Below are positions 4,809 through 36,900 of a stretch of 64,000 nt of DNA, in pieces (positions within the stretch are counted from its first letter, which is position 1; every line of letters begins with the position of its first letter). The translations under genes were made by a program, and so were the position numbers. The stretch comes from Ceratodon purpureus (lineage: Eukaryota; Streptophyta; Bryopsida; Pseudoditrichales; Ditrichaceae): contig CM026426.1 of assembly GCA_014871385.1 (NCBI GenBank), positions 98,358,861-98,422,860 of the forward strand, given 5' to 3'. The notes under the pieces are model-generated. The model ran no database searches. It was not told where the DNA came from and was given only the letters and a program-made list of their open reading frames with translations.

Positions 4809-4811
4809 TAT

Positions 4812-5483: not shown

Positions 5484-5940
5484 TGTTAACCGGAGACCCA
5501 ACCGGTCTCTCCCTTTAACCCCATCCAGTCCCCTCTCAGTTTCATCCAGGAAGTGTCCCGATAGTCATCCAGTTCCTACGGATGAACTCTGTCAGTCGCC
5601 TGGATGAACTCTATCGGAGCCGACTGGATGAACTTTGTCGAAGCTGACTGGATGATTCGATCCGTTTTCAGGGGGTTTAAGAGGCAGGTTTAGGGTTTTG
5701 GGAGATCATTCTACACTAGAGCAGGTAGAGTCAGAGAGGTCTGAGAGCTGTTAGGAACTGCTGTACCATGTGTTTGGGGCTGTTTTGACCCATTTTATGC
5801 AGTTTTGACCTCTTTTTACACTTGAATAGTACATTTCCAGCAACTTATGAGTGTTTGGAGCACTTAGCTTAGTTGGGTTTTGTTGGGTTTTGATGGGATT
5901 GTGAAGGCTAGGGTTTAGTTGGTAAATCCTCCCTTTACCA
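5484..5940 (+). repeat. 5' LTR of copy B
   Basis: It begins TGTTAACCGGAG and ends CCCTTTACCA, and has the same length as its 3' partner. It carries several short units around CCGACTGGATGAAC in the presumed U3. Confidence 0.92.
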
Positions 5941-10738: not shown

Positions 10739-10853
10739 TTTTCTTCTCTACCATTTACTAGTGTAGTCAGTTTTTTTACTGCAAGCCGCTTAGCCTTCTT
10801 TCCATTTACCACCCTTTCTTTTAGTCTCCATGCGTTCTGAGGGCAGAGCTACC

Positions 10854-10868
10854 AGAAAAAGGGGATAA
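10854..10868 (+). promoter_or_regulatory. Polypurine tract of copy B
   Basis: A purine run ending AAAAAGGGGATAA abuts the TG of the 3' LTR, matching the tract of copy A. Confidence 0.78.
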
Positions 10869-11325
10869 TGTTAACCGGAGACCCAACCGGTCTCTCCCTT
10901 TAACCCCATCCAGTTCCCTCTCAGTTTCATCCAGGAAGTGTCCCGATAGTCATCCAGTTCCTACGGATGAACTCTGTCAATCGGCTGGATGAACTCTGTC
11001 GGAGCCGACTGGATGAACTTTGTCAAAGCCGACTGGATGATTCGATCCGTTTTCAGGGGGTTTAAGAGGCAGGTTTAGGGTTTTGGGAGATCATTCTACA
11101 CTAGAGCAGGTAGAGTTAGAGAGGTCTAAGAGCTGTTAGGAACTGCTGTACCATGTGTTTGGGGCTGTTTTGACCCATTTTATGCAGTTTTGACCTCTTT
11201 TTGCACTTGTATTGTACATTTCCAGCAACTTATGAGTGTTTGGAGCACTTAGCTTAGTTGGGTTTTGTTGGGTTTTGATGGGATTGTGAAGGCTAGGGTT
11301 TAGTTGGTAAATCCTCCCTTTACCA
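10869..11325 (+). repeat. 3' LTR of copy B
   Basis: It is 457 bp, starts TGTTAACCGGAG and ends CCCTTTACCA, and is followed by the target duplicate CACAT. It differs from the 5' LTR at about 11 positions. Confidence 0.92.
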
Positions 11326-17105: not shown

Positions 17106-18959
17106 GCCCTCTTAGTATGGCCGGGACATATTTTTTGGTAGCGATGGAGTTTTACGGCTATGGCACTCCCGGTTAGCACTAAAATATTTGAGGTTGTAAG
17201 GTTGCCGGTGAGGCGAGGCGCTGGTAGAGGCAGCCACAGCAGAATATAAGTAGACGTCGCTTACAATCATGTGTAACGGTCAAAGTGAATAATGATTTCA
17301 TATAAATAAAGTGTCGTACTGCATTTTGAAATGGACGTCATTTGTATTCCAAATTCTGCTGTCCATTAAAATCATTACTGTGTGAATGCGTACCAGCCCC
17401 GGGCAATTTCCACACCTCTCCTACAGTAACGCCCTAAGTTGTTGCTTGCATAGCAGGTAGGATATGGCAGAAGCTGAAAGTTAGGATACCGGGAACTATC
17501 GTCCGACTATTCGTCGCCTGTGCGAACTCCGAATTCCCTTGCTCCACTGACAAATTTCGGTAACGGGATCACCATTCTTCATATCGCGGTTACCTATGAT
17601 AAGAGCTTCATCAGTTATTGCGGGTTAGGGTTACACCGTAACCAGGAGGTCCACTTCTGCGGAATCTTCTTCGCCATGTAAGGTAAGTCTCAAACGTTCA
17701 TACCGGATGTATTCCCTTCATATAATTTGCTTCGTTTTCCTAAGTTATAGTTGCCGTCCTCCTAATCTGCGTCTAAGCGTGCATGTACAAAGACTGTTTT
17801 GCACGACTCACCTGCTATGCACCGATGGAAGGAAGGCGTCCAATTGGGTGTGATACACGAGTACAAGAAAGAGATCGCAAACTAGAATCGCGAGAGAGAG
17901 CAGTCGCTGACAGGCAGCGGAGAACTCACCGGCAGTGTCCATGTAATATCTGTTTAGGTGAAAACCATTCTCGAAGGACGCACGCAACAATTCATCATCA
18001 TTTAGCGACATATGGTCGTCACTCGTATCACCGTGGAAGCACGAAGGTAAGCTCCTCAATGTCTCATATTGCTTTCATAAATCTGAGGGGGAAATTTAAA
18101 GTATAACTTGCATGTGTGCTCGGGAATGGTCACTGAGCTTCGTAGAGCATTTCCTGAGCGTAGGAGAACCAGGTCGTTGCGTGAACATTATAATGCCTGC
18201 CAGCACAAACCGTGTCCTGATTACTATTAATTTAACTTCTACGTGGGCAATTAGGGTTGGCCATTTGATGAATCAGATGGAGAATGGGACACTGCCATTA
18301 GGGAAGGTTACGGAAGCAGAAGAGAAGGATTTTTAGGTCAATTTGAAGCACCCATTGATGAAAATATCGACATGCATGGACTAGTACAGAATGCATTTCA
18401 TATATATGATGCATTAGGAGGGCCACTTGGGGTAGCTACTCCAGAAGGAGATGAAGTACCATATGGGCCCGAAGAGGAATTTGGGGTGGAACCATCGAAA
18501 ACCTTGGATGGAGCAGGCCATGGCTCACCTGCCATGCCGGACGATTGGCCAGGACATGCACAAACGGACGGGATCCAGGCAGACATGGACAACAGCCTAC
18601 AATCGCCTAACCGACAGCCTGTCCATGGAGCCGAGGGGGACAACGTCGCTGCGATGGAAGACGCACTGGAGAATGAACAAACACAGATGGAGGAGCTTGC
18701 AAGAACGCCCCTCTACGCTGGGGCCAAGCTTACGCAGCTTAGCAGCACACTGTTGCTACTGAATACATTGAGAACACACGGAGCGTCGAATGCTCTGGTT
18801 AACGAGGTATTTCAGTTGCTATCACGTAGTATTCTACCATCGGTGAATTCTCTACCGAAGTCAGAATATCATGCCTCGAAACTGCTTAAGAGACTTGGAT
18901 TAGCGTACGAAACAATTCATGTCTGCCTCGGACCAAAGGCATGTATGTTGTTCCGGGGG

Positions 18960-18971
18960 CCAGAGAAGTCG
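18960..18971. repeat. MULE target-site duplication, left copy
   Basis: CCAGAGAAGTCG occurs here and again at 33893-33904, on either side of the MULE. Mutator elements make about 9-bp duplications; the extra matching bases may be chance. Removing one copy and the MULE restores the tnp2 reading frame across PEKS. Confidence 0.9.
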
Positions 18972-18981
18972 GACGTAGCTT

Positions 18982-19180
18982 GTACGTGAGCGGAGAGCGC
19001 AGAGCGGAGAGCGCAGAGCGCAGATTTGGAGACCGGAGAGCACAGAGTGGGGGACAGAACCTAAAAATAGCACTTTTTTTACTAAAAATAAATTATAAAA
19101 TTAGAAGATTCGAATATTCCCAGTATATTTTGGAAAGTTACTAATTTTAGTAATTTTATTAACCCTATAACCGTGGACTA
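18982..19180 (+). repeat. MULE left terminal inverted repeat region
   Basis: Tandem GCGGAGAGCGCAGA-type units lie at 18988-19050 and match, inverted, the CTCTCCGCTCTCCGC block at the right end. ACCCTATAACCGTGGA near 19163-19178 also has an inverted partner near 33783. The right copy is shorter because the spacing between blocks differs. Confidence 0.75.
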
Positions 19181-19436
19181 ATTACAGTATTTTCATTGAA
19201 TTTGTAGTTCGTTGTTTCTTTTCTTGGTGATTAATTTTTTAACGTGCACCAATTACTATGCTCCAACTCCTTCTAACTAGTTCAGGCATACATTAATTCC
19301 CCTTATCTCCTCAAATTTATATGCAAATTACCGCTTAAAATGTATTGGTATTGAAGCTCTAAAGAGGGATAAAGTAACATTTAATATCGTAACATTTTCT
19401 TAACATGTTAGAAATCATCCGCCATGGTCTACATGG

Positions 19437-19990
19437 TTTATTTTTTTTTTTTTTCATATTACCCTTCATTACTCTATCTATCTTTCCTTTCCTTTAATTC
19501 TAGTTCATTTTATTTTCTATTTCATTTTATTTTCTCTTTCATTTTATTCTCTTTCATTTTATTTTCTCTTTCATTTCATTTTCTCTTTCATTTTTTTTTC
19601 TCATTTTTTTTTTTTTTTCTCTTTTTTTTTTTTTTTCTCTCTTTCATTTTCTTTTCTCTTTCATTTTATTTTCTCTTTCATTTTATTTTCTCTTTCATTT
19701 TATTTTCTCTTTCATTTTATTTTCTCTTTCATTTTATTTTCTCTTTCATTTTATTTTCTCTTTTATTTTATTTTCTCTTTCATTTTATTTTCTCTTTCAT
19801 TTTATTTTCTCTTTCATTTTCTTTTCTCTTTCATTTTCTTTTCTCTTTCATTTTCTTAGTCGCCTTCATATTATTTTCAACCTTAATATTAATTTTTGCT
19901 TTTGTTTACTTTTATTTTATTAATTTCATTTTTTATAATGTTTTTTTTTTCTTTTTTTCTTTTTGCTTTTATAAATTTTTTTCTTTTATT
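19437..19990 (+). repeat. T/C-rich simple repeat (TTTTCTCTTTCATTTTA)n
   Basis: About 550 bp consist almost only of T and C, built from imperfect units of TTTTCTCTTTCATTTTA. It lies in the left arm of the MULE. A long open frame here reads F/L/S only and is a composition artefact. Confidence 0.9.
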
Positions 19991-20209
19991 TTATTATTTT
20001 TAAATTTTAAATGCTAAATGACTTCTGCTCAACCCTCATCCTTTTGCATTCAGTTGAGGACGATGACAACTTTCAAATGAATGAATAACCGGTTTTCAAG
20101 GGCGCCAAGCATCTTCTTCAGGGATATTTAAGATAAGAGTAGGGAATGTCTCTGCCTCTTTTGTGTTGGAGTTATGTGAAGCTCTTTTCCGTAGTGCGGG
20201 ACAGCAGCT

Positions 20210-20665
20210 ATGGAAGACGTCAGAGATATTGTTGTTTCACTTGCTGACGATGTTTGTCCATTTCAACCATATGTTGAGGTGGAGGACGAAGAAGAGGTGA
20301 TGGCCAACAGCCAAGGGCGTCCTTTGACAACAGATGTTGACGTGGAACCGGTTGTAAGAGCTGACCCTCCACGTTCAGAAAATTCGGATGATATCAGAGT
20401 GCTGGAGGAGGACGCAGATGTGCCTTTGCAACCTCATGCATACTCCAAGGTTGGAAAGATCCCAAGGGGAACCTATTCCAGGGAATCAGTGAATCGGAGG
20501 CGGGAAGGTGGGCCATTGTTGAAACGTTAATACCACGGACACTTGCCAAGTGTAGGACCAAAAGTGAACGTGAATGTAGTTTGTCCTGTAGTACAGTCAG
20601 AGGCTGGCAGTCCTACTGATAGTGTGGTGGGCAACCCTAAAGTTCGTGTTAGGTTCGAAGATTAG
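20210..20665 (+). CDS. Small MULE-borne protein, unknown (in-frame TAA)
   Basis: I do not recognise it. The frame opens MEDVRDIVVSLADDV, continues acidic (VEVEDEEEVMANSQ) and becomes basic near RESVNRRREGGPLLKR. A TAA follows at codon 107. The same frame then continues open for another 44 codons (YHGHLPSVGPKVNVNVV and onward) to TAG at 20663-20665 with similar composition. So the stop may be a recent nonsense change, or the protein ends there and the remainder is chance. It lies tail to tail with the transposase, between it and the left end. Confidence that it is a gene is modest. Confidence 0.35.
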
Positions 20666-20916
20666 GACATCTAATAACAAGTGTATGTTTGCTGTAATAA
20701 AGGGTACATGTCAGGGGATACGAGGTATATAGTGCACTTCTTCAAGATAGAATGTATTGAAATAGAATGCAATCAATGTGAACGACAAAGCCTTTATAAT
20801 GAGAAAGTCAATAGAGCTTCTAAATAGCTGACTTAGTACATGGTATATTACTAAAATCATTCAGTACGTTATCAATGGCCATTGTGGAAATGGCAGTTCT
20901 AGAGTAGGAGGGCTAC

Positions 20917-23900
20917 CTACTTCTTCGCCAAGGGGTGACGCAAGATTCCACTCTCTAGGAGTAGCTTGACCTCGTTAAAGCTGAAGGTGGGCGCATGGAT
21001 GAAAAGCTCCGCTTCGGGATCACGGTTGCAGACCTTCAAGAGTATGTAGTAAAGGTGCTTACAATACGTGAATTGAGTCTTGCCTCGGAACGTAGTCATC
21101 GTCTTCTGGAATGCAGGACAAGTGCAACCAGGGTAAGAACTTATGGTAATCTGGTACCGTGTGATGTGTGGAGCGACGCCCGAATCGAGCCCAATGATGC
21201 AACCGTGGCCCGGCTCAGGTATCATGGTGACGGAACGGAGGCGCGCTTTCAGTGACTCGGAGGAGCCCATGGAGAGTCGCTGCGCTTGATTGGGACGAGT
21301 GGTAGTGCGCTTCACCATCTTGCCGTCTCTCTTGCCTGGGTAGCGGTCAGCGTCTGCAGGGACTGGCACCGAGCTGAGATTTGCAGGGGGCGGGGCAGAG
21401 GAGAAGAGGCGTCTTGGGGAGACCGGCTTCTTCGGCGGAAGTTGAAAGCCCGCTGCTTCAAGGGCTAGAATCTCAGTCAGTTTTAGGTTAGTACCTAGTT
21501 TCACTGGCCAGACCTCAGGAATGGAGGGGAATTCCTGGTCCTTTGAGTAGTGTGCTACCCACTTGCGCTTAGAGCCTTTCATGCAGCGCTCAATATCGTC
21601 GGAGCAGAAGAAGAACTCTGTCTTCTCGACTATGTTCCTGCGATAGTTAGTCCAGAGCCCAGTGTAGGTCGGTGCAGCTGTGCAATGGGGCCCCCTGACG
21701 ATTCTCTCAGTGCACTTCTTTTTCGTTTCAGCTCTTTGGGCCCAGCAGCACTTAGCAGAAAGTTTGTGAAGTCTTGAGATGTGCCACTCTTTGACGTCGA
21801 CCTTGGTTTCTTCAACCGCGTTGACATGGCGAATGCCGCCCTTGTTCACAGGTGAAGGTAAAGGGGAATCAACTTCCTGGGCAGGAGATTGGGTACCTTC
21901 TACCTCGGGGTCGTGTTCGGAGTCGTCTTCCACAATGACAGGCATCTGCATAGGGCGAGCCCTGACGGCACGTCTTAGGCCTCTTGGGCACAAGAAGTTT
22001 GTCTTGTCCGGGCGATGAGACTCCTCGTCAGCTCCGATGGGGACGTCGGCTTTTCGCTTCTGTGAACCGAAGACTTCCGCTCCAAGCATGATAGGCTGAC
22101 GGGTGCAGAACTCATCCGCGCCTGGCATATCGAGCATGGGCTTATCGAGCACTGTAGTATTTCCCCATTTCTTGGCGTTGCGTTCAGCCATCCGGAGCCT
22201 GAGTTCCTTCTTGGATGGTCCTGTTCCGCCGACGTCACCTTTGAGGAACTGGTAGTAGTTCACAACCTGTAGAAATGCGCGAACGAAATCGTCCACGGTA
22301 GCAACGTACAGGTCGTTCCTGTTGTTTCTTGAAGCTTGGAGCCACTTGTTGTGAACTGTTTCGGCGAGGTTACAAGTCGGCATCTCTGTGAGTTCTTCTT
22401 CCGTGAATTTCTGCAGTTTAGACAGGAGGTGACGTTACATTCACCGATTAGAGTTTTGTAGGTTAGGGCTAGGAAACCAGTATCAAAAACATGAAAACAG
22501 AGTGCGGAGATAATACCTCGGTCATGAATCCCCCCCACTGGCGGAAGCGGTGGTGCCAGAATGACAGCCACTGATCGAGTTTGATGAGCCCGCTCTCGCC
22601 AACGACCCCGGTGGATGCCCACCATGCTCGCAACGCGTGGTACAGAGTTTCCGCCTCTGCCATGCTGGTCGCATTCTTGTACTGAGTGCACATCTTCTTG
22701 TGCTGTTCCTAGAGTTCTTCGGGGAAGTGCTTCAGCGTATACGCCACCATGTTCTGAGTCCAGTGGAACAAGCACGACCTTTCCCGGTCCTCCATTGGGT
22801 CCTCTTTGTTGCCATTGCCGTAAAGGATTCGCACTGCATTCCAATTCGCCTGTGCGTTATCCGCCATGAACCCCTTGAAGTTCGGCGCTGCAACGCCATT
22901 GATCTCCATGACCAGGTTCAGGTTTTTCCAAAAGACGAGCTGGGCGTCCGTGTCCTCGGACTGCATGTCGCAAGTGGCGATTGTCATCACGCGGCAGTAG
23001 GTGGCGTCGTACACATGGCACGCCATCGTCGACCAGTCTTTGACGCGTTTTACATGGTCGAACATGATCCATGCGTTCTCCAAGTCGCCACCAGCTTGCA
23101 TTCGGCTGACCAAGTCGACACCACTTCCCGGCCCGACCTCCGACATCTTGAAGACGAAGACTTTGTCACGATAGCTCCTTGACCAGGAAAAATATTCTCC
23201 TGGACGTACGCCCAGAGACTGTTTCCACGGAGCTTGGTGATACCGTCCATGATTCCGTACCTTTTGAATTTTTTGAAGGTGGCGACTTTGTTGCGGATGT
23301 TTGGTGACGCCATGTCTTTGCAACGATCCAAAACAGGAACCAGCTCCTCCATCGTCAGCTTCCTCGGTGGTGCATCCTCGGGCTGTAGAAGGTAGCTCCC
23401 GATGAGGAGTTTGCTCGCCTCCAGGACAACGGCGCTCTTTGTTACTTTGTTGTTCATCTCTACCTGCTCTTCTATTAAGCTACTAATCTCTGCTTTAGAG
23501 TCTCTGTAGTCTCCAACTTTCACTGGATGATCATGTGTTCCTATGTGAATACAAGCTCTAGTCTGTTTCGGTTTGCCCACAACGTAATAAATCTTAGCCT
23601 CGCATGTAGCTACACATGATGGAGGGTCTTTACATACCTTGCACACTAGCGTGGAGTCAGATGGAGGAGGTTGATCCATGAGAAAAGCTTGAAGGGTACA
23701 GCCTTCGAACTCTGTCTCGTTAACCTCGAAGATCTTGGGAACACGCTTCAGGAAATCACACTCTTCGTTGGTGCAGCGCAGCCATCCGACGCAGGTGGAA
23801 CTTCGAAAAGAGAGTCCGAAGTCGTTTTTGATGTTTGTTGTGATGGTTTTGGTCCACAAGTGTCCGTCGTATCGTTTGTCCATTCCCTGCATAGACTTGG

Positions 23901-24165
23901 CGGCAAGCTTAGAGGATCCTGCAGCAGGTGGGGGCAACTCAAAAAGAACCGGACCATCAAACTTCGCAGGCAAGTACTCAACTCTCGCATGTCTAATAGT
24001 GGAATAGTCTATCTTTTTCAAAATGTTTTTTGAACCACGGGTTTTAGCAATCTCTTTAAGGAGCGGAACAATGCTAACTGTGACCTGAGACAATGAAGGA
24101 GAGACACTGGAAGGAGGAGCATCAGCCCGGACCTTAGGCACCAACTTGACGGGACTGACTTCGTC
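20917..24165 (-). pseudogene. MULE transposase with SWIM zinc finger
   Basis: This is the Mutator-type transposase that cuts and joins the element ends. From the N-terminus it has a cysteine-rich DNA-binding part (VGWLRCTNEECDFLKR, then VCKVCKDPPSC and HIGTHDHPV), a MULE DDE-type core (VMTIATCDMQSEDTDAQLVF; FKGFMADNAQANWNAVR; CLFHWTQNM) and, after an intron of about 106 bp (22411-22516), EMPTCNLAETVHNKW, a long polar linker and a SWIM finger (CTCPAF...FTYCKHLYY) near the C-terminus. It carries a frameshift near 23190 and an in-frame TAG near 22709, so it is inactive as it stands unless I have missed an intron. The first codon is unclear because the upstream part runs into hairpin repeats. It is divergent from the methyltransferase-like gene. 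Confidence 0.82.
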
Positions 24166-24167
24166 AC

Positions 24168-24346
24168 CATGGACACTCTGGAGGTACTGCCGTTGCCGGC
24201 AGTACCATCCGATGACCTGGTGAGCATGGCGAAAAGGGATGCGGGGCTGCACCCTTGGGGTACCGCCGGCAACCGCAGTACCCCAAGGCTGTCCACGGAG
24301 AGAACTCCATGGACGGTCTGGAGGTACTGCCGTTGCCGGCAGTACC
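24168..24346. repeat. Three-hairpin module between divergent MULE genes
   Basis: Two identical 24-nt hairpins (24183-24206 and 24323-24346; stem GGTACTGCCG, loop TTGC) flank a longer variant (24254-24287; stem beginning CTTGGGGTAC). The outer two are embedded in 39-bp direct repeats. The module sits between the start of the transposase and the methyltransferase-like gene. A matching module in opposite orientation is at 25925-26065. Confidence 0.9.
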
Positions 24347-24490
24347 ATTCAGTGGTTTAGTTCGTTTTGATAATGTTGACATACCATGTTTGTTCACTAA
24401 ATTGCTTAGGGGTTTCAAAGTCCACGTCTTACAGTGTCGATTTATTACATGTGAACTCATTTAAAATAATTGTGAGTGTGTCTTGCACAG

Positions 24491-27400
24491 AGGCTGATGC
24501 GGCCCCGTTGACGGAATTGGAGGTGAATCTTAAGCTCAATGAGCTGGTGGGGAAGGCCCAAACGAATACAGCATCGCGGTTAGATCAACTGAGATGGAAG
24601 CCTACTAAGAAGGGAAAACTTCACATACCTCTTTGTAGAATGATGGCACTACCTGTAGTGAGGCCGTCGTTGAAGAATGATGTTCTTACATTGTCATCGC
24701 ATTTCACTAGCTGCGGTTACCTCGAGGGAAATGGTTATTTCTATGTGGCTCTTGAAGACAATCATGGTAAAACCAGGGATGTTACAAAGGCCATTTCTGA
24801 TAAATGGAGTGTGGAATGGCAAGCTCGAAACGAGGAATTTGAACAAGAGCTACTTGCAGATGATGATCTTAAACTGTTTTCGAATAAGATGTTTATGGTT
24901 TGGGACGGGAATCATAGACTTCAGGCATGGCTCCCTGTCATTGACCAATTTCATTCAGGAGATCTCTCATGGCATTTCAGAGTGGAGAGTATTATCCTTG
25001 ACCCGAAGGGCGAGGTTGCATTAGTACTGGAGGCTCTACACGAAGTAAACTGGTAAGACTTACATTCGATTCACATGCATTTCGATTTCATGTACTTGTC
25101 CATTTCATACCTAAACTCCTTTTTGTAATGTACAGGAGGAACCAGAAATCTCATGTCGAGACCAACATGGTTCATAAACTTTATCGCATTCAGAGCATTG
25201 GAACTCAACCCTTTTCCTATTTCGAGGGAATTGTGAGCAAGGCAACATTGGACAGTGCAAAAGCGAAGCAAACCGGAGCAAAACGTACGTGGTATACATT
25301 GACATTGGAAGGGCTGAATTCTGTGCTTCATCAGATATGATCCAATTCCGAATTTTTTTTAACTTGCATGTGAGCTTCATATTAAATTCTAAAACACTTG
25401 TACACTTCTGGTTGCAGCAAGGATTAGGGGAGGCCGCATCAGCTGCAAAACGTCGCTTTTACGAGAGGTATCCGGAGCCGCATCAGTGGACCTCAAAATC
25501 TGTGGACGAGTGGATCAGTAAGGCCGTGAAGAGAACTGCAGACACATTCCTCAGTGAATTGAAGAAGCTTCTTCCCATAGCGGACCCAGTCAACACTACA
25601 GCCTTCCTTGAGCAAATAAAATTACACTACGAGAAGTACGACGACTCCCCTGAGATGACTCAGGAGAAGCTGTGGATGTTAGCGACATCAGCGATGCCCC
25701 CGAAGATGAAAGTGAAGTGGCTCCAGCGCTGGAACTTGTCTCCCTCAATCCGTGAGTCACATAGATTTCCGAAGCCGAAGTTCTCGGATGTTATTTTCCC
25801 ACCTTGGCTGCACAAGGCTACTTGGTGGGCGCAGGTGAGGTTTCCTATAATTTCACATTCACTCTATTTTTAAAATAAGTTTTTTTCTATTTTATTAAAA
25901 CTAATTTTGCATGAGCTCGACCAGGGTACTGCCGGCAACGGCAGTACCAAGAGACTGCTCAGTCTAAGGGCAATGCAGTTGCCCGCAGTACCATGGCCCT
26001 GCCCATCAGCGACGTTACCATGCGTCGATGAGCTGGGCTAGGGTATTGCCGGCAACGGCAGTACCAAATGAGTGGCTATATTTTTTTTAAAATTATTTTT
26101 GATGTTCAATTCATGCTTTGTTTTAGGTAGTTTACAATTCTAAGCTATATGATGTTGGCGTTGCAGTTGGCAGTCAAGGTGGAAGACCTCTTCTCCCATG
26201 TGATTGATGATATGGGGGTTAGTATCAATTATGAGCCTGAGGGTGAAGATCCTATTGAGCGTATTTTTGATTATGTCGAGTCTATGCGATGCTCCTTGTG
26301 GGACGTTGCTTTTTTCCGGGAGCTCAAAGGTCCCGACCAGGTGCACAAGAACAAGACTTCAGATCAGATGCCCAGTTTCCCTCAAGCTGTTAAGAGGGTT
26401 CTTTTTAGGTACTTCAAGTACATTCTCTATCCTCGCAAGGCAGTATCTAAAGTTCCTGCATTTTTCGCGAATTATTTAGATCTCAGTAGCACTGAGTGTA
26501 TGTATACTCCTGCCATGCTTAAAGCTTGGGACCCCATTCATTATGATAGATGTGGTTGGTATATGGATTGTCCACCCAAGAAGCCCCCGGCCTTTGATGT
26601 CCCTCTCCGAGATTCGAATCAGCCTGCTCTCTCGTTGCTTCCAGCTAAAGCAGCCCCCGAAGTTATGGCTAAGTCACCCCCAACTCGAAAGGGCAGGAAT
26701 AGGAAAGGCAAGGGGGCTCGGAAGGGTCGAGTTCTCAAGAGAAAGGCGGATGAATTAGAGGATGATCAGGACGAAGATATTCCGGCTACAACCGCGGCTG
26801 GTAAAGAGCCCAAGTCCGTGCCGGCTGAGGGTCAGAGTGTTGAGAATGGTGAGGAGGGAATCGAGGTAGACACAGTCAGTGCTCCTCTGGAGCAACCGAC
26901 TCAATCCGACAAGCGCCCTCATATATCTCCGATAGGGGCAGCATCACCGCATGAGCAAACACCCCCTTCTTTGAAGTCCATGAAATTGCTGCAGCCAGTT
27001 TCTTCTTCCAGTACATCTAGCACAGTTCTTGTTCTGAATGACACATTCCCGGGCATGGTGAAGTTCAAATCAGAGAACAAGAAGTTCCCACCCACGTATG
27101 ATGCAATGACCTCTTTTTTGAGAAAGGTATAATTTTAAACCAATTCTTTTCAATTCTTGCTGTCTTATCCTTATTTGTATTTGGGAAGTTATGACTGATT
27201 CACTACTTTCAGGTCAGAGCTGGTAAGGAGTTCTCTTTCAAGGTACAGTTTTCGGATAGGCCTTCATGTGACCTGGTTATAGCAGAGTACCCAGACGGTC
27301 TGCCAGTACCAGGAGTGTCACAGCCCCCTACGTCTATTCCTTCGTGGAATGAGAAGGTTCATAATTTTTTGGAACTTGTCGTTGGTTTTTCTGGAGGATT

Positions 27401-28998
27401 TCTTCATGACAACGGGGCACTACTTATTTTCTACCCAGACAACCTCCAGATTAAGAAAGAATTATCGCGATTTTTTAATAACAATAATCTGATAGAGAAG
27501 CAAGAGTGGACAGTCATCAATTCCCTCCACTTATGTCACCCCTTGGACTCTTCAAAGTTTGTAAGTTCTACCTCCTTCTTCTTCAATTTCTTTAATGTTG
27601 TAATTCCTTTAAAACTATCTTCTAATACTGACAAATTCATTATTCCCAGACTTTGAAATCGCGAGTTATTGCCCTTGTCCGCACCCTTCCTTCTTCTGTC
27701 ACGAGACAGCCAAAAGAGCTCCTCTATGGTGCCAATCCTGAGTTTCGGAATGTTGACTTGGTGAGGGATGATGTTGTCTTCAATGTCGTCACTTCTGAGA
27801 CGGCCCTTAAGAAGACAAAAGACTGCGCTTTCTGGAGAGGTCCTAAAGAAAAATCAGATTCTTTACTACAACTTTTTGAGACTGCATTATGTCCAAGTGA
27901 TGGAGTTATCGTGGACCTTAGCACTGGATCTGGTCAGTAATATTTTACCTGGATTTTCATTTTTTTAAAATATTGTTTTCGAGGATAAGAATTAATTATT
28001 GTTTCTTGATTCAGGAGCCTCTGTTAGGGCTGCTCGGGCTGCTTCCAGGCACATTGTTGCACTTGAAGGTGATACGTCGATATTCAAAGAGGTTCTCGAA
28101 CCTCTTATGTTCATTCCTAAATTATTACCACTAGCTATGCCTGTTCACACAGAAGACCTTGTAGACTCTAATGACGAAGAACCCCTTCCTGATAAGGGAA
28201 AAGTTAATCTATGTAAGTAAGTTCCGCCCTCGTCCCATTTTCACAATGTTTTGGCCCCACTTTACTTTTCCAATCCATCTTTTATTGCTTCTTTAATTTC
28301 TTCCTCTTCCCATGGCCCACTCCCTCTCGTTTAGCACACTCTTCAGAATTTATATATTTACCCCTGCCCCCTAACCTCCTTCCTATGTCATCGATTCCCT
28401 TCCCCTGTCCCTGTCTCTCTCTCCCTCTTTATCTCCCTCTATATCTCCCTCTATCTCCCCACCCCTCCCCCCTTCCCTCTATCTCCCCACCTCTCCCCCC
28501 GTCCCTCTATCTCCCCACCCCTCCCCCGTCCCTCTATCTCCCCACCCCTCCCCCCGTCCCTCTATCTCCCCTCCCCTCCCCCCGTCCCCCTATCTCCCCA
28601 CCCTTCCTCCCGTCCCTCTATCTCCCCACCCCTCCCCCCGTCCCTCTATCTCCCCACCCCTCCCCCCGTCCCTCTATCTCCCCACCCCTCCCCCCGTCCC
28701 TCTATCTCCCCACCCCTCCCCCCCAGCCCACCGCACCCCTCCCCCGAAGCCCATCCCACAACTCCCCCCCACCCCACCCCACCCCTCCTCCCCGACCTTC
28801 CCCTACTCTACATCTGCCTGTATGTCCACACTGCTCTCCCTATCCCTCATTCCCTCTATATAATCGTCTCTCTTCCCACCCCTCCCCCGGCTTTCCCTCC
28901 CACTACATCAGCCTCTGTCTCCCTACCCCTCTCCCTATCTCTCAACCCTGCACATGAGTTTTAACAACATTTAATTCTGTTTTTTGCAGTCACTTGAA
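24491..28998 (+). CDS. ParB-like / beta-class DNA methyltransferase-like fusion protein
   Basis: Eight exons with GT/AG borders and consistent phase: 24491-25052, 25136-25284, 25422-25834, 26167-27126, 27213-27560, 27650-27932, 28015-28212 and 28991-28998. They give about 970 residues with no stop; the first coding exon upstream is not identified. Residues about 40-190 resemble a ParB/sulfiredoxin-type domain (RMMALPVVRPS; KMFMVWDGNHRLQAWLPV). A basic stretch near residue 560 (RKGRNRKGKGARKG) may be a nuclear signal. The last 280 residues follow beta-class N4/N6 methyltransferase order: CDLVIAEYPDG at the catalytic motif position, GGFLHDNGALLIFYP, and finally the SAM-binding-type VDLSTGSGASVRAARAA with HIVALEGD. 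The usual (D/N/S)PP(Y/F/W) is replaced by EYPD, so catalysis is doubtful. ParB plus methylase fusions are known in phages and bacteria. It may act on the element's own DNA or chromatin; that is inference. Confidence 0.6.
25925..26065. repeat. Second three-hairpin module, in intron 3 of the methyltransferase-like gene
   Basis: 25925-25948 is the exact reverse complement of the 24-nt hairpin at 24183. 26042-26065 is the same with one change. A diverged partial copy lies between them (25974-25992). The outer, variant, outer plan equals that of the module at 24168-24346, inverted, with 117 instead of 140 bp between outer copies. Confidence 0.88.
28380..28950 (+). repeat. C/T-only tandem repeat in the last intron
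   Basis: This is a long block of almost pure pyrimidine on the plus strand, with a core from about 28450 to 28730 made of units like CCCTCTATCTCCCCACCCCT. It lies in the intron before the 8-nt last coding exon of the methyltransferase-like gene. An open frame of S/P/L composition here is an artefact. Confidence 0.88.
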
Positions 28999-30168
28999 AC
29001 TGAAAGATCTGTGGCGCGTTGCATCGTCTCCAACAAGTCCTACTTTTTGATTACCAGAGTATGCCGAATTTCAAGCTTGTGCTCTTGCAGAACTTTCCAC
29101 AAGTAGCTCTAGCGCATCAACAAGCTCTAACATAAATTACGATCCTAGAGTTCTATATTATATCAATCATAGTGCCTCTAAGGATGAGGTAGAATTTGTA
29201 CCTTAGATTTTCTTTCAATGTTTAAATTTTGAATGTCTTCTTTGGCATATTCGTTTTTTGTTCTTCTCTATTTAGTGATTATTTCGTTTAAATAGTATTA
29301 TAACAGAATTCCATAGCCGAGTCCCAATACTAAAATTCTTAATTAGTTTCGGCTCTAATGCGCATTTACGTAAATTCTAGTAAATGAGGCACTACTTAAT
29401 GAATTAGAGCCATTTCTAATGAGTTTGAATATTTGCTTCTCTATATGCGCAAACTTTACTGCCGAGTAATTCCACTTCCGAATTCAGTGAATTGGCGGAC
29501 CGTTTTAAATTCATGGACACACGGTTAAACATGTGGAACCATTTTTCTCTACTTGTAGATCTAACTTATTATCATTCTTCCCTTCTCTTTTTCATTTCAG
29601 TAACTCAGAGATTGCATGTGAATTTTATAAACTAAACAGATATACAAATTTAATTAGATCAGAAGGCCAGTAATTCATGAGGATCAACATTTGTTGTTTG
29701 CAAGTCTTCCCATTTAAAATTAATGTCGAATTCGTTAGAATTCAGTAAGGACTACGTGAGTTGGTGTCGGCCCAGATGTTTTTACAATTGGCTTATGTTC
29801 GAGACGACACTAATATAATGGACTTACTTAGGCCTATTTAACAGACACCATAAAATACAATTCAGTGTCATTTTAATTAGCACCTCATAGAATACCATTT
29901 TAACATTGAAAATTGGTCTCATCAGAATTGAGTCTTGAATTCAGTACTTACTACAATTCAGATATATCATTCCAAAATTGTAATATCTAATTAACCGACC
30001 TATGACATTTCATGAAGTATTAATAAAAATTTCTTCGTTCGCATATTACAGTAGTCACTATATATAACAATAATAATAGAAGCCCTCAGATACAATGGAC
30101 CAATATTTCATGTTGTCGCAACATCTATCCGCCATTAAATCTGCCGATTTAGAGATGGAGTGGTCTTC
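28999..30168. other. AT-rich MULE interior, no gene seen
   Basis: This lies between the convergent ends of the methyltransferase-like and RING-like genes and presumably contains both 3' untranslated regions. I see no coding pattern or repeat worth naming. Confidence 0.6.
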
Positions 30169-31662
30169 TCAAGTCTTCAATCCATTCATTGTTGGTCCCT
30201 TGGCACTATCCCTTGCAGCATTAAGAACTGCTGCAAAACTACTACACTCCGCCTCCTGTTTGCTATTCAGCTGACCACCAAACTGAGCAACCCAAGGCTC
30301 GGAGAGATGCATGGGAGACGATGCCAAAAGTACATCCTTGCAAATCACACATCGGTAACTCTGCAACAAGATCATCTCTGCGGCACAAGGAGGGTGCAAA
30401 ACACAACCGCAAGAAGACAGTACAGCTGCTTTCCAAATAAATCCGAGCCCACAGTAAGAACAATTATCTTTACCTGAATATCCCATGGGAGGAATGGATT
30501 GAACCTGTGGATACTCAAACACTCTTGGTGTTTTAAGAATGAGTGTCTCCTCTCTCGCGGCCCTCACTGCTTTTTTACATAGCTCTAATTCTCCCTTGTA
30601 ATCCGCCAGTAATTTAGCTTCATTCCCCATCTGTAATTCCAGGTCAACAACATCTTTTCGGATTTGGGCATCGACTTCCCTCATATATGCGAGGTCTTTG
30701 TGCAACTCCTCTACCTCGGCAATGGTCTCCTTGTACAAAACAGTAGCACCCTTGCTACGTAGAATTTGCCTCGCCTCCTTCAGTTTCGCAGAATACTTGT
30801 CATTCAAATCCTCTTCTACTGCCTCAAGTGATTCTCCTCTCATCCTTTCGAGACTCGAATTATACTTCTGCCGTATATCGTGTAGGCGATCCTCAATTGA
30901 CTCAACTTCCTTTATCTTTTGCTGCTCCAGTTCCAATGCAGCCTTCAACTCGCAACCCCGATCATCAGGCTGTGCCACAACTGTACCTGAGTGAGAGAGC
31001 TCCTTGATTATCCTGCACAATCCTTCTACTTGACATCTGGTTGCAACTGGGCCGAGCTTCGATGGATTTCGACAAGCAAACTTCTGTCGCATTTGGTGTC
31101 GGTCCAATGCCTCAGCGCACCAGTTAACTTGTTTCCCGTACACAAAAGAAGCAAAACAAGCTCTTAGAAAACGTAGACAAAAGTAGTTGTTGTGGGGCCG
31201 ATTACCATAGACCTTGAAATATTGTTGTCCAAACGTCTTCAGCTGGTCATCATCCTCGCATCTTGAGAACTCGTATCGCCCCTTCGAAGCTCCTGTTTTC
31301 CACACCGTCCCTATTTCTTCATCAGTGATGAAAGCATAACACTTGGCCACATCCTTTAGAAGCGGGCCTTGGTCGGAGAGACCAACGACCTCAGTGAAAA
31401 ACACTCTCCCGTACTCGGCATCACGCCCTTTCAACATTGGCGCAGCATCAAGCATCCTCTCACGGAGTCCCTCCTCAAATTCAGAAAGATCGAATGGGTC
31501 ACTAAACTCCTCGGTACTGAAAACTCTATCACTACCGCCTTCCCCCTCACTACGACCTACAGTATTATTGTCACTCAGATCCTGAACGTCTAGAACTTGA
31601 TGCATAGAACCCTGTGCTCTAGGTCTATGTTGTTTGCTCGCCTTCTTCCTCTTCGACGTCAT
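30169..31662 (-). CDS. Coiled-coil RING-like zinc-finger protein, MULE cargo
   Basis: This is an intronless open frame of 497 residues. The N-terminus is basic (MTSKRKKASKQHRPRAQG), perhaps a nuclear signal. Residues about 230-390 are long, charged, heptad-like helices, for example KIKEVESIEDRLHDIRQKYN, predicted by eye to form a coiled coil. Near the C-terminus is CSYC, then CGCVLHPPC, then CVIC. This spacing resembles a RING finger but one usual metal ligand appears missing (AAE after PPC). RING proteins are usually ubiquitin E3 ligases, and a coiled coil would allow dimerisation. It faces the methyltransferase-like gene tail to tail. No break is seen. It could instead be a structural zinc-binding protein without ligase activity. 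Confidence 0.6.
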   Translation of the reverse strand: MTSKRKKASKQHRPRAQGSMHQVLDVQDLSDNNTVGRSEGEGGSDRVFSTEEFSDPFDLSEFEEGLRERMLDAAPMLKGRDAEYGRVFFTEVVGLSDQGPLLKDVAKCYAFITDEEIGTVWKTGASKGRYEFSRCEDDDQLKTFGQQYFKVYGNRPHNNYFCLRFLRACFASFVYGKQVNWCAEALDRHQMRQKFACRNPSKLGPVATRCQVEGLCRIIKELSHSGTVVAQPDDRGCELKAALELEQQKIKEVESIEDRLHDIRQKYNSSLERMRGESLEAVEEDLNDKYSAKLKEARQILRSKGATVLYKETIAEVEELHKDLAYMREVDAQIRKDVVDLELQMGNEAKLLADYKGELELCKKAVRAAREETLILKTPRVFEYPQVQSIPPMGYSGKDNCSYCGLGFIWKAAVLSSCGCVLHPPCAAEMILLQSYRCVICKDVLLASSPMHLSEPWVAQFGGQLNSKQEAECSSFAAVLNAARDSAKGPTMNGLKT

Positions 31663-32716
31663 CTGATCCTGAACTTACTGGCAACAGTAGCAGCAGTAGT
31701 AATAGGACTTCTACAAGAACAGTGTCGGAACTACGAGCTTAAAATTCAGTAGTGAAGAACGTACATAGACTATTGGAAGAGAGACATAGAACTAGATCAC
31801 TGCTGCAACAGTGTGTAAGAGTTAGCAACGACTATAATCCTGGACCTAAACGGCGAGATGGATGAAATCCTAAGGGAAACTCATGACTTTATTTATTATG
31901 ATCACATGTTTTGAGAGGGAATTATATCTCCGTCGTACAAGAAGGAGGCGCCTTCATTAGAAACGGGCTATACAGAGTTTTCAGAGTTTAAATCTCACCC
32001 TAAACTTAGTGTCGGGTATTATTACATGTAATCAGGTCTCTTATACATATAATCGTCATAGGTTGGGAGAGGACATCTGGTTGAAATGATTAAATCATTT
32101 GAAAAGAAGTTCACCAGAAATTTAGGAACACTAAAGAATTAAGCTTCACATATAATATTACGATAGTAAATGAGAAATGAACTAACAGAGTAGATGTGTG
32201 CTCAGAATGGATTAAATAATTTGTATTGAAATTGGTATGTTTATTATATTAGATCAATAAGAAAAAGTCGAATGAAGTCTAAGTTTTCTGCGGTTAAAAT
32301 GTAAGGAAAAACAATAATTTTAGATACCGAAATATATAAATTTACCAAAATATAGAAATATATATACCAAAGTATATATAACTTTAGGTGCCGAAATTTT
32401 AGATACCGAAACATATTCAAAATGAAGACACGCCAATATATAATCAGTCAATTATTTTCCATCGCCCAAAACTTCATGATAGTAAAGGAGAAATGTACCA
32501 ACACACGTGCCTTCGATGGATGAAAAAAATTACAAAACAGTAGTACTCTGTATTAAAAACAAAGAATGAAGAAGTGGAATGAAAGGACTATTTTTGGGTG
32601 ATTATAATGTAAGAAACAGCTGAAACTATATAAACCCGAAATATATAATAAAGAATATCTCAAACACAGAAATAAGGGAAAAATCTGAAATTCATATATT
32701 CATAGTTATACCAATC
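31663..32716. other. AT-rich spacer between RING-like and F-box-like genes
   Basis: No coding pattern is seen. It should contain the promoter of the RING-like gene. TATAT-rich stretches near 32335-32410 repeat the phrases TAGATACCGAAA and ATACCAAAGTATATA. Confidence 0.55.
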
Positions 32717-33229
32717 TCATCTATGTTTAGGTGACACCCAAACACCATCACCTGCAATGAGTTTCTGTCCCTTTTCGAGCCACATTGATTGGTTACCATT
32801 GCTACTTAACAATGTCCTCAATTGCTCTAACTCACTGCAACTAAGTTCCCCAAGTGACGCTGTTTCTAGCCTGTCATTTCTAATTGGATTTGCTAATGAC
32901 CAAGACGTCTTAAAAATGTTCCAGTTCACATTGAAACGAATCGCTAAAAACTCATCCTTGGAAGTCCAGTGCCCTCCGGTATATGAATCATAATCCCACT
33001 TAGCAAGTCTGAGGCAAGCATACTCTGGACTGCTGTCAATCTCCCGTCTCCAGAGCTTCGAAACAGCACGAGCATTCTCAACATCTTGAAATGTAATCAC
33101 TGGTGTAGGAGTCCAATATTGTGCTCCAGTAGAGCCCACGGATTCCCAAGGGTCAGGTCCATCTGCCATCCTTCTCAGCAAATCCTGAAGAATTGTTTCA
33201 CAAGCAATGACTTCAAGGGAATCGCTCAT
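32717..33229 (-). CDS. Small F-box-like protein, MULE cargo (170 aa)
   Basis: This is a short intronless frame. Its N-terminal half, LEVIACETILQDLLRRMADGP followed by FQDVENARAVSKLWRREIDS and YACLRLAKWDY, has the helical pattern and the (A)RAV...W(R)R.I motif typical of F-box domains, which link substrates to SCF ubiquitin ligases through SKP1. The rest (SLGELSCSELEQLRTLLSSN and onward) is not recognised, and it lacks Kelch or LRR repeats. It is about 650 bp from the right end of the MULE and on the same strand as the RING-like gene. Similarity is by eye and modest. Confidence 0.45.
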   Translation of the reverse strand: MSDSLEVIACETILQDLLRRMADGPDPWESVGSTGAQYWTPTPVITFQDVENARAVSKLWRREIDSSPEYACLRLAKWDYDSYTGGHWTSKDEFLAIRFNVNWNIFKTSWSLANPIRNDRLETASLGELSCSELEQLRTLLSSNGNQSMWLEKGQKLIAGDGVWVSPKHR

Positions 33230-33782
33230 TCTCTCAAACTATGTCTACCATAAGCAACATTCACTTCAACGAACTGCTAATTGAAATAATATGAACTCAA
33301 ACCACCTACGTTTATATGGAACAAAAATTGACTTAAGAATGCTTCAATACATCTTAGCCAAAGACGAAGAAATTATCAAATACGTGAAGCATTTCTAGGA
33401 TGTATATAATTTTGGACTCATTATCAGCATTATTGTACATCTTATTTAAATATTCGAAGAAGTTTTCAACAATATAATTTCTGATTTGCAATATTCCTTT
33501 CAGTATAGCAAAAGCGTTGAAGACGTGGACCTCATTTAGTAGTATATTCTCAATTTTTTCAATATTAAATGTTCTAATCTAAAAACATCATGCTGGAATA
33601 CTCGTATCTAGATCCAATAAGGGACCAAATCTAAAGGAATGTATGCATGACGTCATCATGACATCAGCCCTAATTTGTATCTTAGAGAACAAACGTAATA
33701 AATTCTTACCAGAGATAACCCTGATTTCCAAGGTAATATACTCTTTTCCTAAAAAAAGTGTCAAGATCAAGCCTTAATTTAG
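33230..33782. other. MULE right arm, noncoding
   Basis: AT-rich DNA lies between the F-box-like gene and the right inverted-repeat region. No gene is seen. Confidence 0.6.
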
Positions 33783-33892
33783 TAATTTTCCACGGTTATA
33801 GGGTCTACTTTGCTTTTGAAAATTTCGCTAATTGTCAATTCTGTGCTCTCCATTCTGTGCTCTCCGCTCTCCGCTCACATACGAACTTTCCC
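33783..33892 (-). repeat. MULE right terminal inverted repeat region
   Basis: This contains the inverted partners of the left-end blocks: CCACGGTTATAGGGT near 33783-33798 and the CTCTCCGCTCTCCGCTCAC block ending near 33877. CTGTGCTCTCCATTCTGTGC beside it is a diverged repeat of the same unit. Confidence 0.75.
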
Positions 33893-33904
33893 CCAGAGAA
33901 GTCG
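33893..33904. repeat. MULE target-site duplication, right copy
   Basis: CCAGAGAAGTCG matches 18960-18971, and the tnp2 frame resumes directly after it. Confidence 0.9.
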
Positions 33905-36900
33905 TTGCTGGATAAGTGTTCTGTATGTGGGGCAGATAGGTACAGAAGAGCTGGAAAGTCGAAGGTGCCTGTGAAGGTCTTACGGTGGTTTCCTTTGATA
34001 CCTAGACTTGTGCGCATGTACAGCACCTTTGTACAAGCGTCATTCATGACGGCCCATGCTCGTCTCGCAAGCACGGACGATGGTATGCGGGGGGCATTTG
34101 ACTCACAGCAGTGGGAGTTCATCAACTGGCGGTGGTGGGAGAATTTTGCAAAGGAAGACAGAAACCTGCGCCTGGGGTTGGCCACGGACGGAGTGAATCC
34201 CTTCTCCATTAAAAGGTCTACGCATAGCACTTGGCCTGTGCTATTGATGAACTATAACCTTCCCCCATGGATGACCACTAAAAAGCATTTTATAATGCTA
34301 AGTCTCATAATTCCAGGGAAACGTTCGGTGACAGGTGACAACTTCGATGTGTACATGCAGCCGCTTCTTGAGGAATTACAGCTGTTGTGGTCAGAGGGTG
34401 TGGAGCTGCATGACGCTGCCAGGTACAAGGGCTCTGCTACATTCAATCTGAAGGCAATTCTTATGTGGACGTGTCATGACTTTCCGGCTTATGGAGTAGT
34501 GGCAGGGTGTGTTACTAAAGGATACAAGGGTTGTCCTATTTGTGGGAAAAACACGGTATCACGGAGGTCGTGTGCATTACACAAGTCCGTTTACGACAAC
34601 CAGTACCGCAGGTGGTTGCCCATGGACCATCCTTGGCAAAGGAATGGAGATGCTTTCAATGGAGCAGAGGAACTTCGCCCTCCCCCCGAGCCCATCACTG
34701 TCGAGGAGACTCTCAGATGGGGCCGCCTAAGAGAGGCTTTCGTAATGCGAGGTTCAACTCCAAAGTCAGATGACCCGGCTAGAGAGTATGGGGTCAAGAG
34801 AGTTTCCTGTCTTTTCTCTCTACCGTATTGGGAGGTGTGCGTTTTTCCCCCCATTCTCGTTACTCTTTACTCCTTGCCCAGGGCTTGGTTGATTTTGTTC
34901 TTATTAAGTCTCGGTCAACTAGCATCCGGTCTGTATCACTCCGTATACGTTGTCACTGATTTCCCGATCAGTTTTTGTAAGCTAGTATACTGTCCCTCAT
35001 TCCCCAATATCATACTGACTGCGGTCAGAAATATATTTTTGTATGTTGAGGGCAGTTTGGCTTAAGTTGTAGTGTGTTCCCCTCCTCATAGGTAATCGCC
35101 ACCTACAATGTGTAGAGATCGACAGCATTTTATGTAGCTTTGCCAGACGAATACAGTTGTCTAGAGTACACTCTAATTATCGAAATCGGTGATCTCAGAC
35201 TCTAATTATTTCTACTCTGCTCTCTCGCATACACTGTCTGTATATGGCAATTAAGTTCGGGCTAGAACTGTGATGTGTTGTCCGTCAAGTATGGATTGAC
35301 CATGTACCTAACTGAAATGAAGGAGTGTCCAGAGACTGCAATGATGCCGTCCTAGTACTACGAGGGTTGCTTACTATGAAAAGAGTAGAGTTAATTTATT
35401 TAAATTTCATAAGGTCTTCGTTTTGTTTGCCTGAACATGTGGAAAGGTTTGTAGAGGTTTCGGTGGTATGATGTGGCTCTGTAATCGTTATCCCTGAAGG
35501 ATTCTTTTTTAAAGGACCTCACGATGAACATGTGGGGCATATTCAGTTTGCCTACATATAGAGGAAGTCGTATATATTTTTTAATTAACCTGTATTAAAT
35601 GTAGACCTTTGAGTCCGCAGGTTTGGTATACACTGATAATGTGATGTCAGTGGGTTATAATATCTATGTCGTCGTACTGGATAAAAAGTTGATGTTAGCT
35701 GAGTTCACTCGTTTTGTTTTGCACTGGAGTATCATATCATACAACAGTAAGTGACGAGAAGCATGTCTGTTCGAAGACTGTTAGTACACACCCGTAGTGA
35801 CATGCTCACGAATGCGTTGCGTGGTAGCTTCAGTAAGAACAACTTCTCGGCTGTGGACCTTTACTTGGTTCCGGGTGGACATCACTCTAGTTAGGGAGGG
35901 TGATGTTGCATGTGGACACAACGATTACTTGTGCTCTGTTGTCAATGACGAATGCGCTCCGGGGTACGAGATTATTCTCTTTATTATTCAGAATAACAGT
36001 AATACACGAGCGTTTTTAGAGACGATGGAGGTGTTTTTGAAAAGACGATATCACTTGCAGGATTTGTTTACAGTCCTTTTCTTCTTTGGCATAGTATTCA
36101 GTACCTTCGCCGTCTGAGATCATGTTCCCCCATCATCCGCTAACGACATTGTTCTTGTCCATAAATGAAGGTAACTCCAGTGGATTTATAGATTAGTACT
36201 GCACTTGCCTAACAAGTACCAGGGATATTCTGTTCATTACCTCTAAGCTTATAAAGAAAGAAGGTAGAATGGGCCATTGCCTGTGAAACAATAGCCCGGC
36301 ATTGTTCACCATATACCGAATTCAGTTCTATGTAATCAATACTAATGTGAGATAGACAGCGTGATTTCCACAAATGTGCTTCTGTGATACATGTATTGGT
36401 GCATCCACTAACACTCTCTCCAATGCTGTGTGTGTCAGGAACTCCCAATCAGAAACACGCTCGATGTAATGCACATCGAGCGAAACATATCTGACAACAT
36501 CTTGAGACACCTTTTTGGTGAGAAAGATACTGTGGCACTTCGCCGTGACATGGAAGAGGCAAATATATTCAGTGATCTCCATCTTCGCAGGACAGAGAAC
36601 GGGGATTTCGTGAAGCCAAGAGCCCCGTACGTTTTCACTCCCACAGAGAGATTGAAATTCATATCATTAGTGTCGTCAACCAAAGTCCCGTCTGGTTACT
36701 CATCGACTCTAATTAAGCATGTGGGCGAGTTGAGATTGGTTGGGCTTAAGAGCCATGACCACCACATTCTCCTCCAGGAGATATTACCAGCCGCAGTGAG
36801 ACATTTGTTGAAGAAGGGAGTCCGGGAGATCATAATTCGAGTTGGAAAACTTTTCAAGAGAATCTGCGCAAAGGTAATCTACAAGTCAGAGTTACCGTCT

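Follow-up and report, generated by a model that had tools for sequence, protein, structure and literature searches.

A transposon-borne gene with a putative ParB-like region and a methyltransferase-like domain in the moss Ceratodon purpureus

Does a DNA transposon of the moss Ceratodon purpureus carry a protein of bacterial type, and what would such a protein do for the element? The question is raised by a 64,000-nucleotide stretch (hereafter the window) at C6:98358861-98422860 of the 362 Mb genome. C6 spans 110.5 Mb (30.5% of the bases), and is, judging by its size, presumably the male V chromosome. An earlier note, made from the letters of the window, had described an eight-exon gene (hereafter the cargo gene) within a Mutator-like element (MULE) and had read its N-terminus as ParB-like and its C-terminus as a DNA methyltransferase.

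Conserved as an accessory gene, the cargo gene belongs to a large DNA transposon of which several families exist in one genome. A protein search of the genome with one exon gave 1,857 first-look candidates, the best 150 of which all had E ≤ 1.9e-74 at 60–100% identity; at least 150 loci match the exon. C6 held 68 of these best 150 matches, compared with its 30.5% share of the bases (binomial p = 1.7e-4, a guide only, as copies are not independent). For closer study, 26 copies were drawn from the best 40 of 159 candidates of a genome DNA search: the window copy, seven near copies (c2–c8), six at about 85% (d1–d6) and twelve at 66–76% (L036–L047). Proteins of the distant copies were pieced together from tblastn matches, and intron read-through accounts for some of their exon-border residues. 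The cargo gene lies inside the same ends in all eight near copies, the window included, and its exon layout is conserved across several families. Other copies inside element ends, which the earlier note had proposed to look for, thus exist, and a fixed single-copy host gene was rejected on the many genomic matches and on the near copies within the same ends.

The cargo gene is under purifying selection. The ratio of nonsynonymous to synonymous substitution rates (dN/dS) between the window and the six copies at about 85% was 0.13–0.18 over 933–963 codons (dN 0.12–0.16, dS 0.79–0.96), with 0.13–0.26 for the methyltransferase part and 0.11–0.19 for the ParB-like part. It was 0.08 against L036, most other distant pairs being saturated at silent sites. 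Against the nearest copies, where changes are very few, the ratio was 0.89 (c2), 0.34 (c3) and 0.30 (c4); such higher values are expected for recent decay, but they give constraint no support.

Alignments A1 and A2 were each made of six of the 26 copies, chosen for diversity and openness. A search of 5.8 billion proteins with the exon alignment A2 returned 245 proteins at E ≤ 10; the listing gave 120 of them (P0001–P0120). Among these, most homologues of the ParB-like exon lie on metagenome contigs, and two come from C. purpureus (identity to the window exon 59 and 66%). The exon family is probably broader than the genus, because P0104, P0107 and P0111 are only about 40% identical (37–43%) and have different N-termini. 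In the same 5.8 billion proteins, neither the whole-protein query nor a three-copy full-length alignment gave a match among the roughly 8,000 candidates scored for each, and A2 scans of viral_contigs and genome_contigs confirmed no relative.

The eight exons of the window splice exactly, as the earlier note had placed them, into an open frame ending VNLFT*; this frame is, however, a truncated one. Compared with c2, about 2.4 kb is deleted at 24167–24169, inside palindromic repeats, and the deletion is larger against some other copies, whose palindrome arrays are longer. The deleted stretch held the 5' part of a transposase frame and the first coding exon of the cargo gene (MPQSGQRQ...DDDEEE, 187 nt), the donor of which matches in phase the acceptor preceding 24491. 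A single pattern for this exon matched five of the seven other near copies and not the window copy; it did not match in c2 and c3, yet tblastn pieces of the exon appear there, and L045 and L042 have a homologous reading frame upstream. The AG/GT sites of the first seven window exons are kept in c2–c8, while the last exon (9 nt) was read only in the window. The window, c4, c5 and c8 have the seven main exons open; one stop interrupts them in c3 and in c6, frame shifts do so in c2 and c7, and not one copy among the six at about 85% is fully open. With the first exon included, the frame is open in c4, c5 and c8, three of the eight near copies, and encodes about 1,035 amino acids. From its acidic N-terminus the full product runs through the ParB-like region and a long central part, which includes a basic linker, to the methyltransferase domain. 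The acidic exon and the basic linker, as read by eye, would be compatible with a nuclear regulatory protein, which proves nothing. The last intron also contains ten copies of a 28-bp unit, TCCCTCTATCTCCCCACCCCTCCCCCCG, at 28446–28723.

The borders of the element were placed from the seven near copies, which are 91–98% identical to the window in long aligned blocks and less so in tandem-repeat stretches. All eight near copies share the right end CACATAC[AG]AACTTTCCCC. The left end starts with GGACGTAGCTTGTACG in six of the eight, is a variant in c5 and is eroded in c8. The terminal inverted repeats (TIRs) of the window copy are imperfect, at 79% over 52 nt. Read by eye, a 10-bp target-site duplication (TSD) is exact in five of the eight (window, c2, c3, c4 and c5), agrees at nine of ten positions in c6 and c7, and is missing from c8, whose left end is eroded. 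The element interrupts the frame of a Tnp2 (CACTA-type) transposase gene, and joining the flanks minus one TSD restores an empty site with 625 open codons across that transposase. Joined at offsets of 9, 11 or 12, the flanks instead run into a stop at codon 242, 261 or 241, within 25 codons of the junction. The extent that the earlier note had given the element did not hold, since the real one occupies 18971–33893 and contains at least two other genes; six other near copies measure 16.9–17.7 kb.

Homology of the C-terminus to N4/N6 DNA methyltransferases is supported by several comparisons. PF01555 matched five of six diverse copies at E ≤ 10 in Pfam (best 8.2e-6), and phrog_3008, a DNA methyltransferase family, matched all six at the same threshold (best 1.4e-8). 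The window protein alone matched a PHROG DNA methyltransferase with E = 0.014, and its methyltransferase region alone with E = 0.0031. An hhalign comparison with seven phage and plasmid methyltransferases gave 97.4% (E = 9e-12); the methyltransferase alignment A5 comprised seven of nine fetched loci, with L055 used separately and L058 left out. A Rhodococcus phage methylase was matched by tblastn (1e-5), and in the phage and plasmid matches listed (20, 60 and 30 of 273, 273 and 63 records) the features were mostly named methylase or methyltransferase, the rest being hypothetical or unannotated. A PDB search with the methyltransferase part returned DpnA alone (E = 0.1). The order of motifs is that of the beta class, as had been noticed earlier, with the motif IV slot first and motif I last. 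VDLSTGSG is present and conserved across the copies, and motif I, which binds S-adenosylmethionine (SAM), is readable in 23 of 26, with a glycine altered in two of those 23.

The catalytic motif has changed throughout. According to the alignment with a Paracoccus reading frame (E = 0.03), DLIIADPPYGDTSLA stands opposite DLIIAEYPDGLPVPG, and DPPYG is aligned to the altered motif IV slot. This slot reads [ED][YF]PDG in 24 of the 26 copies, EYPNG in d6 and DYLDD in L037. The canonical D/N/S-PP-Y/F/W was found in none of the 26, nor was DPPY. A pattern search of the genome for DL[VIM]I[APST]DPP[YF], run without a positive control, gave no match, and neither did its reversed control. Because motif IV is altered in every copy, active base modification by the cargo protein appears doubtful. 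The earlier suggestion of a DNA-modifying cargo protein is therefore supported as to transposon cargo, with the gene in 8 of 8 near copies, and doubtful as to modification.

Assignment of the N-terminal region to ParB is plausible but unproven; it is suggested by motif and layout and went undetected in profile tests. The candidate box II contains G-N-H-R in 25 of the 26 copies, a short motif that is weak alone. In alignment A3, which joins 73 of the 120 listed homologues to the exon of the window, the box II glycine is invariant and the arginine at least 90% conserved. Strong conservation extends over IPLCRM..L.VVRP.L..D...L..F...GY..G....YV ... VWDGNHRLQAW in these 74 sequences. This arrangement resembles the ParB layout described in the available part of a ParB-CTPase survey, namely a box I helix and loop followed by GxxR (PMC12704722). 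One of the 74 members matched DndB at 0.085. Both short motifs picked out in the earlier note, VWDGNHRLQAW and VDLSTGSG, are conserved among the 26 copies. Of the double identity it proposed, the methyltransferase half was borne out by Pfam, PHROG, hhalign and tblastn, while the ParB half appeared in no profile test. The profile search it had recommended was likewise split: PF01555 was recovered in the diverse copies, and PF02195 was not recovered.

The introns of the cargo gene carry arrays of a 24-bp palindromic repeat, counted with the pattern GGTACTGCCG-4-CGGCAGTACC and up to three mismatches. The window holds five, all inside the element and in two cargo-gene introns; the count was zero elsewhere in the window, in 20 mononucleotide shuffles and in four control loci. 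There are 13–23 in each of the other near copies, and 24 of the 26 copies have between 3 and 23 in the part of their DNA that was read. The commonest unit of the near copies is an imperfect palindrome, with 4 of 24 positions differing from the reverse complement. In most copies at about 70% the unit is the perfect palindrome GGTACTGCCGTTAACGGCAGTACC, which recurs every 105 bp or so upstream of L045 (locus L050) and again in the intron matching 25835–26166. The most divergent copies, L046 and L047, have no 24-bp repeat in the DNA read. A second palindrome, ACCGCCGGTACCGGCGGT, was sought because the first was missing in these two copies, and was counted without a shuffle control. It is repeated in their intron matching 25835–26166, with its 14-mer counted 5 and 6 times, and one degenerate unit lies upstream of L046 and another in a later intron of L047. 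Since L046 and L047 carry this other palindrome in the same intron, the array is retained while its sequence changes between families. Palindromes also form the parS sites of ParB, and the arrays look like possible binding sites for the gene's own product, other roles being open.

The explanation we prefer, which we judge about evenly poised between right and wrong, is that the cargo gene encodes an accessory protein, ParB-like and non-catalytic, which attaches to the palindromes of its own transposon and favours expression or transposition. The protein would bind the element's DNA rather than methylate DNA as its relatives do. Its ParB-like part would load, in the manner of ParB on parS, on the palindromes that two introns of its gene contain, and the methyltransferase domain would be kept for SAM or DNA binding, not for methyl transfer. 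Once bound, the protein would keep the element in a condition that favours its expression or transposition, acting as an anti-silencing factor or a transposition cofactor, in a role comparable with that of VANC or ParB and not necessarily identical to either. Of this picture, the borders and copies of the element, the selection, the methyltransferase relationship, the motif change and the palindrome arrays are established, and a ParB fold, attachment to the palindromes, loss of catalysis and an anti-silencing role are inferred. A bolder form of this idea, which we offer tentatively and regard as somewhat improbable, is that plant transposons come with a ParB/parS-like system of their own. In it, a ParB-like clamp joined to a catalytically altered SAM-binding domain would sit on lineage-specific intron palindromes and counter host silencing, palindrome and protein changing together between families.

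Several results weigh against the preferred explanation. For none of the 74 aligned members did the listed families (E ≤ 1) include PF02195, PHROG and PDB profile searches of the ParB-like region gave no meaningful match, and hhalign against six P1/N15-type ParBs, canonical chromosomal ParBs being outside the comparison, gave 1.6%. Neither the window protein nor its methyltransferase region alone had a PF01555 match, the profile-profile match spans motif X and motif I and not the motif IV half, and dN/dS of this part between the window and c2–c4 was 0.79–1.02, at very low divergence. The window copy is truncated at its 5' end, lacking the first coding exon, and its own deletion ends within one palindrome. 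The palindromes could instead serve transposase binding, RNA hairpins or recombination. Finally, the kept SAM motif points to some use of SAM, and the motif IV variants could be active. A rival reading is that the protein is a working DNA methyltransferase whose motif IV is unusual, directed by the ParB-like part and marking its own element with N4-methylcytosine (4mC) or N6-methyladenine (6mA). A largely readable motif I, a domain under selection and the acidic residue and proline that remain in motif IV would agree with such an enzyme, and self-modification was proposed for the similar Ectocarpus protein in the part of that paper available (PMC12477816); we nevertheless consider it unlikely, given that 0 of 26 copies have D/N/S-PP-Y/F/W and that the genome pattern, lacking a positive control, went unmatched.

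The protein might also be a structural subunit of the transposition machinery, a transpososome or target-choice factor that binds the transposase or the element ends and uses its prokaryotic domains as scaffolds. The head-to-head position relative to transposase-like frames, seen in the near copies and also in two divergent copies out of the three fetched upstream, is compatible with this, as is conservation of a third gene; but the palindromes sit in introns and not at the element ends, and we think such a subunit quite unlikely. Broken copies (frame shifts in c2 and c7, a stop in c3 and in c6, no fully open frame among d1–d6) are what a passively captured gene without function for the element would leave. 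That reading is contradicted by the selection test, with dN/dS of 0.13–0.18 against six copies, and by the exon layout conserved in several families; we rejected it as very improbable.

A cargo type unknown to science was rejected as well, because genes combining ParB and methyltransferase in algal transposons are published. The passages on the Sola1-1_Ec32 transposon of Ectocarpus describe a ParB-like plus N4C/N6A methyltransferase protein, cite green and red algal transposons for the same cargo, predict 4mC or 6mA as the product, and raise self-modification as a possibility and not as a tested function (PMC12477816). The moss element is likewise a large DNA transposon with both kinds of domain in a gene transcribed opposite to the transposase (the Ectocarpus protein has 1,104 amino acids). 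It differs from the Sola1 element of a brown alga in its 10-bp TSD and altered motif IV, and in palindrome arrays, which those passages do not mention; the likeness is by description, not sequence. Phage and prophage fusions of a ParB-CTPase fold to N6_N4_Mtase, reported in the available part of the survey (PMC12704722), share the domain pair, the mobile-element setting and the GxxR box II. Those fusions are prokaryotic and their ParB is found by PF02195, whereas the moss protein is unmatched by this family. The words plants, algae and moss are absent from the main text of the survey as available, and ParB does not occur in the available part of a giant-transposon review (PMC6431247). A bacterial ParB and methyltransferase fusion for comparison was not found, L048 and L058 being without ParBc (Pfam; two of the nine fetched loci L048 and L052–L059 scanned). 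Bdelloid rotifers, according to the sections available, offer another case of bacterial-type amino-methylation in a eukaryote, in which N4-methylcytosine is a working epigenetic mark and, unlike here, not transposon cargo (PMC8885841).

No such gene in land plants or MULEs was found among the top-listed papers in searches of the open-licence literature, of which the Ectocarpus paper alone was seen to bear on the subject, and the earlier statement that no MULE with this cargo had been described is uncontradicted there, although the two-domain cargo is known from Ectocarpus Sola1. VANDAL MULEs encode VANC anti-silencing proteins; like them, the moss transposon would be a Mutator-like element with an accessory gene of the same proposed role. 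It differs in possessing TIRs, and the likeness is one of proposed role. New here are the land plant host, the different transposon type, the altered catalytic motif, the palindrome arrays in introns and the other palindrome of the most divergent copies. With at least 150 loci, several families and palindromes whose binding can be assayed in vitro, the function is directly testable. An anti-silencing clamp would mean that eukaryotic transposons reuse bacterial partition machinery, and an enzyme with a new motif IV would require the rules for reading amino-methyltransferases to be revised. Positions of all features are given in Table 1.

Table 1. Features of the transposon copy, its cargo gene and its insertion target, in window positions.
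Feature	Position	Strand	Basis
Whole transposon copy	18971..33893	.	14,923 bp; ends common to near copies, TSD, empty-site frame
Left target-site duplication CAGAGAAGTC	18961..18970	+	sequence read at both flanks
Right target-site duplication CAGAGAAGTC	33894..33903	+	sequence read at both flanks
Left terminal inverted repeat (GGACGTAGCTTGTACGTGAGCGGAGAGC...)	18971..19028	+	52 nt 79% complementary to right arm; common to copies
Right terminal inverted repeat (GGGGAAAGTTCGTATGTGAGCGGAGAGC... on - strand)	33836..33893	-	pairs with left arm; common to copies
Cargo exon (second coding exon of full gene), ParB-like region	24491..25052	+	open frame; splice sites kept in copies; alignment
VWDGNHRLQAW, candidate ParB box II (GxxR)	24898..24930	+	GNHR in 25/26 copies
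Cargo exon	25136..25284	+	open frame; splice sites kept in copies
Cargo exon	25422..25834	+	open frame; splice sites kept in copies
Cargo exon	26167..27126	+	open frame; splice sites kept in copies
Cargo exon, first part of methyltransferase-like region	27213..27560	+	open frame; splice sites kept; alignment
Motif IV slot DLVIAEYPDG (relatives: DLIIADPPYG)	27270..27299	+	alignment to Paracoccus frame; 26 copies
Cargo exon, holding a motif X-like segment and the first part of motif I (VDLSTGS)	27650..27932	+	open frame; profile-profile match; copies
Cargo exon, rest of motif I (GASVRAARAASRHIVALEGD)	28015..28212	+	open frame; profile-profile match
Last coding exon and stop	28990..28998	+	read in window copy only
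24-bp palindromic repeat, remnant of first intron	24183..24206	.	pattern count
24-bp palindromic repeat, remnant of first intron	24259..24282	.	pattern count
24-bp palindromic repeat, remnant of first intron	24323..24346	.	pattern count
24-bp palindromic repeat, intron 25835-26166	25925..25948	.	pattern count
24-bp palindromic repeat, intron 25835-26166	26042..26065	.	pattern count
Transposase-like gene, 5' part missing in window copy	20917..24160	-	open reading frames; longer frames in other copies; SWIM E=0.13
Third gene of element: coiled coil and RING-like Cys/His C-terminus (by eye)	30169..31674	-	kept in copies
Tnp2 (CACTA-type) transposon, insertion target	18255-18970 and 33904-35065	+	PF02992 E=3.6e-69 in right flank
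DUF4218 of target CACTA-type transposon	36412-37194	.	E=9.1e-33

The label Mutator-like is suggested by TSD length, by the TIRs and by motifs read by eye, and carries no profile confirmation. The TSD falls within the 8–11 bp of MULEs, TIRs are present though imperfect, and CxCx(n)CxH and CLFHW can be read in the transposase-like protein. No Pfam MULE model matched this protein, the SWIM match of the window copy is weak, and a Pfam scan at E ≤ 1 found no SWIM in the transposase-like frames of c8 or L051. Of the MULE proposed earlier, the inverted repeats and an exact TSD are thus present, while the transposase is unconfirmed by Pfam. Transposase-like frames lie upstream of the cargo gene on the opposite strand in the eight near copies and in L050 and L051, two of the three divergent copies with upstream DNA fetched; within 5.3 kb upstream in the third, L049, there was no such frame.

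The third gene was matched in all seven other near copies and in five of the six copies at about 85%, and had no Pfam match above the cut-off. It appears to be a second accessory gene, with no role assigned and a RING-like character read only by eye. Near the right end, 32525–33249 is matched in c2, c3 and c7 and unmatched in c5, c6 and c8 (32470–33471 in c4). It contains a 173-amino-acid open reading frame (32717–33238, minus strand) that is F-box-like by eye and had no Pfam match at E ≤ 1; this segment is possibly a captured host gene fragment.

An Rfam scan of the window gave nothing at gathering scores. To the left of the element, 1–11325 contains diverged direct repeats (3–2046 and 7545–9645, 75% identity), probably from long terminal repeat retrotransposon copies, and gag-like open reading frames were read there by eye (7122–9260 and others).

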